Part shown: positions 3,066 through 45,207 of the stretch, one piece after another | Layout of the letters: every line of letters starts with the position of its first letter | Position numbering within the stretch: the stretch's first letter is position 1 | Notes under the pieces: model-generated | Database searches by the model: none | Told to the model about the DNA's origin: nothing | What the model saw: the letters and a program-made list of their open reading frames with translations, nothing else | Program-made: the position numbers and the translations under genes | From: Ignavibacteria bacterium | GTDB taxonomy: Bacteria; Bacteroidota; Ignavibacteria; Kapaibacteriales; UBA961 | NCBI GenBank assembly: GCA_947491315.1 | Contig: CANLII010000009.1 | Coordinates: 1 to 64,000 of the forward strand | DNA length: 64,000 nt | Direction: 5' to 3'

Positions 3066-3101
3066 AAAGCCCGCTCTTCGTAAAAGAGCGGGCTTTTTTT
3101 A
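3066..3101 (+). terminator. Intrinsic terminator downstream of T9SS gene
   Basis: Perfect 13-bp stem AAAGCCCGCTCTT/AAGAGCGGGCTTT followed by a T-run. Confidence 0.9.
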
Positions 3102-3107
3102 TATAGA

Positions 3108-3310
3108 ATAACCCCTCGGGGTGCAGGAAAGCTCCGTAGGAGTGGCATCACAATAGCCCCATCGGGTCGTGATGGTAATAGCCCCATCGGGGCGTGATGT
3201 TCAACGATTGGTTTTATAATGAATGTCAGAATCAATTTCGCCCCTACGGGGCTATTATGATGTCGCCCCTACGGGGCTCTATTGCACCCCGAGCGAAGCC
3301 GAGGGGTGGG
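3108..3310. repeat. REP-like array of 25-bp hairpin units (minus-oriented then plus-oriented), bracketed by an 11-bp inverted repeat
   Basis: Units at 3131-3155, 3156-3180, 3181-3205 (minus orientation) and 3240-3252, 3253-3277 (plus orientation, TATTATGATGTCGCCCCTACGGGGC). Outer inverted repeat CTCGGGGTGCA (3115-3125) / TGCACCCCGAG (3283-3293). Confidence 0.85.
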
Positions 3311-4769
3311 GTATCATTTCAGCGACTATCTTTCCGCTACTCATAACGCCTGGCAAACCTGCGCCGGGATGAGTGCCTGCACCAACGATATAAAGGTTTG
3401 AAATATCTTCAGAGAGATTATGAGGACGGAACCATGCAGATTGCGTGAGAATTGGTTCAACGCCAAATGCATTACCAAGATGAGAATTGAGCGTGTCACG
3501 GAAATAGGTTGGAGTGACAAAATGCTCACTGACAATATGCTTGGATAAATCAGGCATATAACGCTCTTCAAGATATTTCACGATGCGGTCGCGATATTCA
3601 GGACCCTTCACTGACCAATCAGTACCAGATGCCAGATGTGGAACGGGCGAAAGAACATACCAACAATCATGTCCTTCAGGAGCAAGCGATGGATCCGTTG
3701 CCGATGGACGATGCAAATACAGTGAAAAATCATCAGCCAAATGCTTCTTTTTAAAGATGTCTGTGACGAGTTCTTTATATCTTGGACCCATAATGATCTC
3801 ATGATGCGCAAGATCTTCATACTTTTTGTCTGTACCGAAATACATCACAAATAAACTCATCGAATAATGCAGATTCTTCATCCGATTATCGGTGTTCTTC
3901 TTGCGATATTTCGCGGGAATCATCTTCATATACATATTCCCAATATCCGCATTACTCACCACAATATCAGCTTTCATAATTTCACCTGATATGGTCTTGA
4001 CCCCTGTGGCAAGCTTGGTTGAATCATCAATCATGATTTCTTGGATTTCTGTGCCAAGTTGAATCTTTCCGCCAATATCTTTGAAGACATTCACGAGTCC
4101 TTGAACCAATGCACCCATGCCGCCCATCGCAAACCACACGCCCCATCTTTGCTCCAGAATGTGAATCAAAGCATAAATGGAAGTAGTTTGAAATGGATTA
4201 CCGCCTACAAGCAATGGATGAAAACTGAATACCTGACGAAGTCTGTGATCTTTAATATGCTGATTCACCATGCCCGCAACAGAACGCTCGGCACGCAATG
4301 AGATGAGATCAGGCAGAACTTTAAGCATTGAACCAATTGTGGTAAATGGCTTATCAATCAAATCAAATCCCGCTTTGAAGATTTTCTCGGCATCTTTGAT
4401 GAAACGATGATATCCTTTCACATCATCCGGATTCAATGCCTCTATCTGCTTGAGAATCGAGTCTTTGTCGCCATTATAACGGAATATGGTTCCATCTTCG
4501 AAGCGTACATTATAGAATGGATCGATAGGAACGATGTTCACATAATCATCGGTTTTCTTGCCGGCGATTTCAAATAATTCATGAATAAGCCATGGAGCGG
4601 TGATGATCGTCGGACCCGCATCAAATTTGTACCCATCGCGCTCAAAAACATATGCTCTTCCACCCGGTTTATCGAGCTTATCGACTATGGTGACTTGATG
4701 TCCTTGAGCTTGTAAACGAATCGCGGCACTGAGTCCGCCAAAACCACTTCCGATGACAATGATATTCAT
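3279..4769 (-). CDS. crtI: Phytoene desaturase/CrtI-family FAD oxidoreductase
   Basis: N-terminal Rossmann motif 'IIVIGSGFGGLSAAIRLQAQGHQVTIVDKLDKPGGRAYVF...FDAGPTIIT', C-terminal 'NLYIVGAGTHPGAGLPGVMSSGK', both typical of the CrtI family. Confidence 0.9.
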   Translation of the reverse strand: MNIIVIGSGFGGLSAAIRLQAQGHQVTIVDKLDKPGGRAYVFERDGYKFDAGPTIITAPWLIHELFEIAGKKTDDYVNIVPIDPFYNVRFEDGTIFRYNGDKDSILKQIEALNPDDVKGYHRFIKDAEKIFKAGFDLIDKPFTTIGSMLKVLPDLISLRAERSVAGMVNQHIKDHRLRQVFSFHPLLVGGNPFQTTSIYALIHILEQRWGVWFAMGGMGALVQGLVNVFKDIGGKIQLGTEIQEIMIDDSTKLATGVKTISGEIMKADIVVSNADIGNMYMKMIPAKYRKKNTDNRMKNLHYSMSLFVMYFGTDKKYEDLAHHEIIMGPRYKELVTDIFKKKHLADDFSLYLHRPSATDPSLAPEGHDCWYVLSPVPHLASGTDWSVKGPEYRDRIVKYLEERYMPDLSKHIVSEHFVTPTYFRDTLNSHLGNAFGVEPILTQSAWFRPHNLSEDISNLYIVGAGTHPGAGLPGVMSSGKIVAEMIPHPSASLGVQ

Positions 4770-43770: not shown

Positions 43771-43964
43771 GAAGCATTACCTAAATCTAAATAGTTTCGG
43801 GCGGGTATAATAGACAACACATGTAATAGCCAATCACCTATTTCAAAGATAGGGATTTTATGGACAGGTTATAGTTACCATGCACTCAATACACTCCCGG
43901 AAAAATACAATTGGACTTTTTATGTTTTTTGTTTGTCAATATTGTCTGTATGTTGTTTTTGGGT

Positions 43965-44180
43965 TATAATGATGTCGCTCTATTATGATGTCGCTCGTGC
44001 GGAGCTGTTGGGATGTCGCTCGTGCGGAGCTATTATGATGTCGCACCTACGGAGCTATTATGATGGCGCACCTACGGAGCTATTGGGATGGCGCACCTAC
44101 GGAGCTATTATGATGTCGCTCCTACGGAGCTATTGGGATGGCGCACCTACGGAGCTATTGGGATGGCGCACCTACGGAGC
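43965..44180 (+). repeat. Tandem array of eight 25-bp units (consensus TATTATGATGTCGCTCCTACGGAGC) plus a partial unit, upstream of IS200-like tnpA
   Basis: Head-to-tail units begin at 43981, 44006, 44031, 44056, 44081, 44106, 44131 and 44156, each exactly 25 bp; partial unit 43965-43980. Confidence 0.95.
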
Positions 44181-44195
44181 TATTATAGGGGTACA

Positions 44196-44257
44196 GCACC
44201 AGAGGTGCGATATCACAATAAACATTGATGGAAAAGGAATTTAAGCCCCATCGGGGC
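44196..44257 (-). repeat. Oppositely oriented hairpin units at tnpA 5' side
   Basis: GCACCAGAGGTGC (44196-44208) followed by GATATCACAATA (minus-orientation unit), and GCCCCATCGGGGC (44245-44257) followed by GATATATGC. Confidence 0.75.
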
Positions 44258-44280
44258 GATATATGCAGGGGGGTAGTGAT

Positions 44281-44745
44281 ATGGCAAACACATATACACA
44301 AGTTTATGTGCAGATTGTATTTGCAGTTAAACATAGACAGCATCTTATTCATAAGTCATGGAAAGATGAATTGTACAAGTATATTTGCGGAATAATCAAT
44401 GGTAAAGCACAGAGGGTATATGCAATAGGAGGTGTTGAAGATCATATACATATACTGGTTAGTTTGAAACCGGATATGTCGATTTCTGAATTAGTAAGAG
44501 AGATTAAAGCATGCTCTTCAAAATGGGTAAATGAAAAGGGTTTTGCACTAGGGAAATTTCAATGGCAGGGAGGGTTTGGGGCTTTTTCATATCAAGGTGA
44601 TGCATTAGAAAATCTGATTCGATATATCAATAATCAAGAACAGCATCATCAAAAAAATAAATTTAAAGATGAATACATTGCATTGATGCAACAGTATAAC
44701 ATTGATTATAATGAAAAATATTTGTTTGTTTTTATGGATGAATGA
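44281..44745 (+). mobile_element. tnpA: IS200/IS605-type Y1 (HUH) transposase TnpA, solitary (no tnpB); candidate repeat-associated/RAYT-like protein
   Basis: 'HRQHLIHKSWKDELYKYICGIINGKAQRVYAIGGVEDHIHILVSLKPD' (HIH = HUH motif) and 'LENLIRYINNQEQHHQKNKFKDEYIALMQQYNIDY' (catalytic-Tyr helix, YIxxQ); ATG 44281 preferred over 44263. Confidence 0.9.
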
Positions 44746-44751
44746 TGTTGA

Positions 44752-44865
44752 TATTGGGATGTCGTTATTATGATGTCGCTCCTACGGAGCTATTATGATG
44801 TCGCTCGTACGGAGCTATTATGATGTCGCTCCTACGGAGCTATTGGGATGGCGCTCGGAAGGAGC
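44752..44865 (+). repeat. Downstream array of four 25-bp units plus partial, abutting the stop codon of the SUI1-family gene
   Basis: Units at 44766, 44791, 44816 and 44841 (25 bp each) plus partial TATTGGGATGTCG at 44752-44764. Confidence 0.93.
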
Positions 44866-45207
44866 TTATCCAATCATTCTTGTTTTATATCCATGGTCTA
44901 TGAGTGTTTGTTCTAATCTTTTTCGATGATCACCTTGAATTTCAATGAGATTATCGCGGACGGTACCGCCTGTTCCGCAAAGTTTTTTGAATGTTTTGCA
45001 GAGTGTATCTAGTTCAGTGGGATTTGACTGAAAGCCCGAGAGTACGGTCACCATTTTACCACCTCTTCCTTTTTTATCGAGGCGGATATCGATGCGTTGT
45101 TGCGAACCATCATATCCTTTTTTTTTTACGATGACCTGATCATTCTTTTTGGCATCATCCGGCAAGAGAGATGCGAGATCTTGTAATGATGTAAAGGACT
45201 TACTCAT
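44866..45207 (-). CDS. SUI1/eIF1 family translation initiation factor (YciH-like)
   Basis: 'KKGRGGKMVTVLSGFQSNPTELDTLCKTFKKLCGTGGTVRDNLIEIQGDHRKRLEQTLIDHGY'. Confidence 0.9.
   Translation of the reverse strand: MSKSFTSLQDLASLLPDDAKKNDQVIVKKKGYDGSQQRIDIRLDKKGRGGKMVTVLSGFQSNPTELDTLCKTFKKLCGTGGTVRDNLIEIQGDHRKRLEQTLIDHGYKTRMIG

Follow-up and report, generated by a model that had tools for sequence, protein, structure and literature searches.

The tnpA locus analyzed here is probably the autonomous member of a hairpin family that resembles REPs, with very short units and a class-1 transposase (TnpA_Y1 subclass 1.2) that serves them. It lies in a 64,000-nt stretch (the window) of contig CANLII010000009.1 of Ignavibacteria bacterium GCA_947491315.1. 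We favor this reading because tnpA is the only Y1 gene of the genome, about 60 units lie elsewhere, hairpins are enriched in the flanks of related genes and their sequence co-varies with TnpA; likewise because the site is precisely empty in congeners, related cores are found between inverted arrays, and the predicted fold resembles that of the IS608 and ISDra2 transposases. The sequence comparisons also indicate that a transposase group recorded as REP-less appears to have its own small hairpin repeat family.

The tnpA Gene and Its Protein

A profile search revealed tnpA as the sole Y1_Tnp gene in the 2.30-Mb assembly, and a search for the C-terminal domain of TnpB (PF07282) gave no match in the genome. 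The protein matched Pfam Y1_Tnp with 94 bits and exceeded the cut-off of the NCBIfam IS200/IS605 model NF033573 (62.5 bits, cut-off 55), while its score against the RAYT model NF047646 stayed below the cut-off (26.2 bits, cut-off 80). The motifs DHIH, WQ and YINNQEQHH, whose residues were invariant or nearly so in an alignment of 30 homologs, agree with the signature DH[IV]H, WQ, Y---Q--HH given for subclass 1.2 in the motif table of Quentin et al. (2018; PMC6006769). In a quick tree, in which many branches were weak and long-branch warnings were raised, both the IS200/IS605 and the RAYT references fell outside the subclass-1.2 group. The AlphaFold model (mean pLDDT 91) found its best structure matches in the TnpA proteins of IS608 and ISDra2, many of them as DNA complexes; the E. 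coli RAYT ranked lower. Judged by its sequence, the window TnpA is a class-1, IS200-like protein of subclass 1.2.

Membership among the RAYT or class-2 TnpAREP proteins, which the initial annotation had proposed, was therefore rejected based on YINNQ in place of Y---NP and on the low model score. RAYT-type units were rejected as well: the tetranucleotide GT[AG]G is not present at the hairpin foot, which reads ATGTC or GACAT. Plasmid carriage was also considered and dismissed, with just two near-full-length relatives (51 and 41% identity); the remaining plasmid matches listed were distant IS200/IS605 TnpAs with about 30% identity.

Repeat Units and History of the Locus

The locus sits inside an 83-kb contig, and its repeat region may contain an assembly error. 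The features are given in Table 1.

Table 1. Positions of the insertion, the repeat units and tnpA in the window.
Feature	Position	Strand	Details
Another unit site	3131..3277	.	reverse units left, forward units right
Insertion of ~1.1 kb between murC and yciH	43772..44866	.	left boundary at 43772 give or take a few bases; right boundary close to 44866
Left 193 bp of the insertion	43772..43964	.	no units
Partial unit	43965..43980	+	from sequence and TRF
Eight head-to-tail 25-bp units	43981..44180	+	hairpin at right end of unit; perfect stem in 1/8
Reverse unit	44196..44220	-	hairpin GCACCAGAGGTGC, tail GATATCACAATA; tail points to tnpA; stem perfect
Reverse unit	44245..44269	-	hairpin GCCCCATCGGGGC, tail GATATATGCAGG; tail points to tnpA; stem perfect
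tnpA, Y1 HUH transposase, TnpA_Y1 subclass 1.2	44281..44745	+	154 aa
tnpA motifs			HUH motif DHIH, residues 54-57; WQ, 95-96; catalytic Tyr115 in YINNQEQHH
Four head-to-tail 25-bp units	44766..44865	+	perfect stem in 2/4

The coordinates that the initial annotation gave for the eight and four units and for tnpA were all correct, and so was its statement that tnpB is missing; the two reverse units between the left array and tnpA were absent from it. The unit of the window combines a 12-nt lead (TATTATGATGTC) with a 13-nt hairpin (GCTCC-TAC-GGAGC). A perfect 5-bp stem was present in only 3 of the 12 array units; the others carried one mismatched pair, frequently the identical one, and two imperfect unit variants did not give the hairpin when folded alone. 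An Rfam search returned no meaningful match. Because most array units share stem mismatches, the arrays in the window probably grew via local tandem duplication of altered copies. Amplification of these 25-bp arrays by TnpA, as suggested initially, is thus not supported, since the shared mismatches fit local duplication and two congeners have units without a detectable tnpA.

In the congeners yciH and murC are co-directional and near-adjacent, and in the genome studied here they are parted by the insertion. The insertion was missing in all six congeners, in which the two genes lie close together (with a gap of only a few bases in the nearer ones), and no Y1 TnpA was detectable in any of the six. 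Its boundaries could be mapped on the single genome copy, and no common ends were identified; the unit-free left part showed no convincing similarity to any locus compared. Two of the congeners, G396 (86% complete) and G398 (91%), contained 13 and 7 units, respectively, with no detectable Y1 TnpA. The presence of units in genomes in which TnpA was not detected therefore implies that the units spread earlier, were driven from another copy or spread independently of TnpA. In a quick tree with moderate support the window TnpA clustered with Chitinophagales-like TnpAs, followed by a protein of the same order, and the TnpA of a same-family genome did not group with it. Horizontal arrival of the tnpA locus would be the simplest reading of these sequence relationships.

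Dispersed Copies in the Genome

When the genome was scanned with the window unit pattern (up to 3 mismatches), 80 matches were obtained, 14 of them in the tnpA locus, compared to 5 for the reversed pattern used as control, so that the arrays exceed what chance would give. About 60 further unit copies are located outside the locus, mostly in intergenic DNA; the units therefore occur at many other sites, and the initial description of the locus as REPtron-like, in which hairpin repeats dispersed over the genome surround a solitary Y1 TnpA, is supported. Most matches form arrays with a 25-bp period between large ORFs or at their edges, one array site being overlapped by an uncurated ORF. A check anchored on the tail and blind to the stem recovered at least 4 of the 5 stem pairs at 45 of 65 tail-bearing sites. 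At several genome sites the left-hand units are inverted and the right-hand ones forward, and at three of these (contigs C20, C44 and C14) a related core was found between inverted unit arrays. With C20 as the reference, the core of C44 was 80% identical over 95 bp and that of C14 80% identical over 55 bp, an alignment that partly consists of unit sequence.

The hairpin units are interleaved with a second (TGCACCCCGAGCGAAGCCGAGGGG) and a third repeat family (CCCACCCCGCCC...GAGGGGAATG) in mosaic intergenic arrays, seen at loci L007, L010, L017, L018 and L031 of the same genome and at 3100-3320 of the window. At shared intergenic positions, sister genomes whose flanks were about 94% identical differed in their repeats (L030 vs. 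L203, L014 vs. L193, L012 vs. L210). Judged from these pairs, the differing array sites turn over fast; clean 25-bp steps between sister-genome array sites were not seen, and some sister sites contained runs of N.

Hairpins Beside Subclass-1.2 Genes in Relatives

We analyzed 109 subclass-1.2 loci (29 homologs from a phylum-wide search and 80 named ones from a scan of species genomes, with a few duplicates), using dinucleotide shuffles and DNA 1.5–3 kb away in the same loci as controls. Within 300 bp of the gene, GC hairpins reached 5.43 per kb compared to 0.155 in shuffles and 0.296 in the distant DNA, corresponding to a 35-fold and an 18-fold enrichment. At least one hairpin was present at 96 of the 103 loci with enough flank, and 62 had hairpins on both sides (0.3% in shuffles); at 7 of the 103 no hairpin was found within 300 bp. 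The median was 4 hairpins within 600 bp on each side of the gene. The general unit has a 5-bp stem, a loop of 3–4 nt and a 3′ tail near GACATnnTAATA, with the consensus G-A/G-N-A-T adjoining the stem.

The hairpins are spaced by about 50 bp (173 of 274 gaps measured 46–56 bp), and a period of 25 bp was therefore rejected as typical. Neighboring hairpins were arranged head-to-tail (55 RR, 53 FF and 2 mixed pairs). This order is general in relatives, and the window, at 25 bp, represents a variant with half the usual period; the layout indeed differs from the BIME-like one, as had been noted initially, both in the window and beyond it. Tails mostly face the gene (135 vs. 55 upstream, 104 vs. 53 downstream), units on the left and right of a locus are mostly in inverted orientation, and the TnpA homologs are bounded by related hairpin arrays instead of unrelated IS200 ends. 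At L078 (Algoriphagus boritolerans, identical to L149), tnpA is surrounded by a higher-order array: four hairpin types, 25 hairpins in total, follow one another in a recurring order on either side of the gene, across about 2 kb. Subclass-1.2-like TnpAs were also observed at L108, L115, L147, L148, L153 and L160, beyond the published Bacteroidetes and Cyanobacteria; the records of this set are labeled Neomarinimicrobiota, Verrucomicrobiia, Cloacimonadota, Acidobacteria and a Thalassobius MAG, and binning error may lie behind such out-of-phylum records.

Quentin et al. (2018; PMC6006769) described subclass 1.2 as having neither REPs nor IS ends. Their REP search accepted only units tagged GTAG or GTGG whose basal stem measured 7–20 nt, and it could not find the units reported here because these criteria exclude them. 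Given the hairpins at 96 of 103 loci, we consider that the published REP-less description needs correcting. In the searchable literature, which includes few subscription papers, subclass 1.2 was nowhere described with REP-like units, and the novelty of these units is probable but not certain. Of the undescribed RAYT/REP variety put forward in the initial annotation, the first part agrees with the searchable papers, while the RAYT part does not hold.

Co-variation of Units and TnpA

Across 102 loci, units were more alike the more identical their TnpAs were (Mantel test, p = 0.0005; r = 0.36 for tails and 0.38 for stems; pairs above 80% identity were excluded, and host phylogeny remains in r and may contribute to it). 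The closest units to those of the window were found at a Chitinophagales MAG locus whose TnpA is 65% identical; they equal the perfect units of the window in stem, loop and tail. Also, units beside one TnpA clade were alike across different bacterial classes (L084).

The association was visible at the genome level. Among 396 genomes of the phylum, counted as independent although related and scanned with the window-type unit pattern, 26 of 111 with a strong TnpA hit were unit-rich, compared to 21 of 285 without (p = 2e-5). Outside family f26 the proportions were 22 of 105 and 5 of 205 (p = 1e-7). Sixteen f26 genomes were unit-rich without a strong TnpA hit. Many units and no subclass-1.2 TnpA were observed in G056, G213, G071, G225, G300 and other f26 genomes; most of the unit-rich f26 genomes that were checked had other, mostly longer Y1 proteins, and some had none.

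Proposed Mechanism and Alternative Explanations

In the mechanism that we propose, a unit present as single-stranded DNA, e.g., on the lagging-strand template, would fold into a hairpin with a 5-bp GC stem and a loop of 3–4 nt. TnpA would bind this hairpin together with the conserved foot bases (5′ ATGTC, or 3′ GACAT when the opposite strand is read), and would cut and rejoin through Tyr115. It could thereby move or copy segments enclosed by inverted units with inward tails; this would seldom affect the tnpA locus as a whole and more often short non-autonomous segments or solo units, and tandem arrays would then grow or shrink through slippage. The sequences themselves show the anatomy of the locus, the dispersal of units, their association with subclass-1.2 genes across the phylum, the co-variation with TnpA and the empty site; binding, cleavage, the choice of strand and TnpA as the cause of unit spread are what we infer here. 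The unit-bearing congeners without a detectable TnpA, the unit-rich f26 genomes without a strong hit, the imperfect arrays and the 7 of 103 loci lacking hairpins argue against this reading.

The same locus might be an ordinary IS200-type IS, with hairpins that are locally duplicated subterminal ends and dispersed copies that are remains of old insertions. The class-1 protein scoring above the IS200/IS605 cut-off, the fold nearest to IS608 and ISDra2 TnpA and the fact that the locus is an insertion would all suit such an element. We nevertheless regard it as unlikely: several hairpins per flank are usual instead of one per end, a single tnpA copy is accompanied by dozens of units, and the units are mostly inverted between left and right, whereas recognition of IS200/IS605 ends takes place on one strand. 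Quite unlikely, in our view, is that the hairpins form a separate repeat of intergenic DNA (e.g., terminators, attenuators or the repeats of another enzyme), independent of tnpA, which lands or is kept among them. Intergenic hairpins can serve as terminators, and genomes with units but without a subclass-1.2 TnpA fit this idea; however, it leaves unexplained the 18-fold density near tnpA relative to other parts of the same loci, the orientation of tails towards the gene, the co-variation with TnpA across families and the similar units of one TnpA clade in different bacterial classes. A domesticated TnpA acting in host single-strand DNA processing, with repeats as binding sites and not as mobile DNA, seems very improbable. 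Its single copy and the catalytic residues conserved over 30 homologs are in line with domestication, but the gene is missing in all congeners and was recently inserted here, its distribution is patchy and the TnpA tree is unlike the host tree.

Beyond the autonomous locus, we lean slightly towards a third REP superfamily, characterized by 5-bp hairpins, an ATGTC/GACAT foot and head-to-tail arrays of ~50 or 25 bp, which would be mobilised by class-1 TnpA, be widespread in Bacteroidota and neighboring phyla and stand between IS and RAYT/REP systems. This bears on the question of how REPs originated, as well as RAYTs, the domesticated descendants of IS200-like transposases. If subclass 1.2 has cognate hairpins, REP-like systems would have had at least two origins or have gone through a class-1 stage. 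If true, pairs of protein and substrate from cultured Flavobacterium or Chryseobacterium would be directly testable, and many short palindromes of Bacteroidota intergenic DNA would be explained.

Comparison With Known Systems

The CGTC-tagged palindromic repeats, which were reported from Chlorobi and Bacteroidetes among others and said to have no dedicated transposase (Di Nocera et al., 2013; PMC3733652), are likewise short tagged palindromes. However, the tag here is ATGTC-like (A-T-N-Y-C), loops have 3–4 instead of 4–5 nt, and head-to-tail arrays occur together with a TnpA, while head-to-tail dimers are negligible there. With IS200/IS605 elements such as IS608 and ISDra2 the locus shares the family-level protein match and the fold, and by analogy hairpin recognition would be expected. 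Those elements have one hairpin per end, in contrast to the many inverted unit arrays, the dispersed solo units, the single copy and the missing tnpB found here.

The protein resembles subclass 1.2 (PMC6006769) in size (154 aa here, median 148 aa there), in the motifs DHIH, WQ and Y---Q--HH, in low copy number, in the lack of tnpB and in having Bacteroidetes among its hosts; unlike the subclass as published, nearly all loci tested here have hairpin units. Class-2 RAYT/TnpAREP REPtrons also consist of a solitary Y1 gene between cognate hairpins dispersed in intergenic DNA, and in both systems units and protein go together. They differ in the protein (YxxxQ here, YxxxNP there), in the 5-bp stems and the ATGTC/GACAT foot found here in place of GT[AG]G, and in the ~50- or 25-bp head-to-tail arrays that stand in place of inverted BIME/REPIN pairs. 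In its likely working the locus resembles a REPtron most, while its protein belongs to subclass 1.2 and not to the RAYTs.
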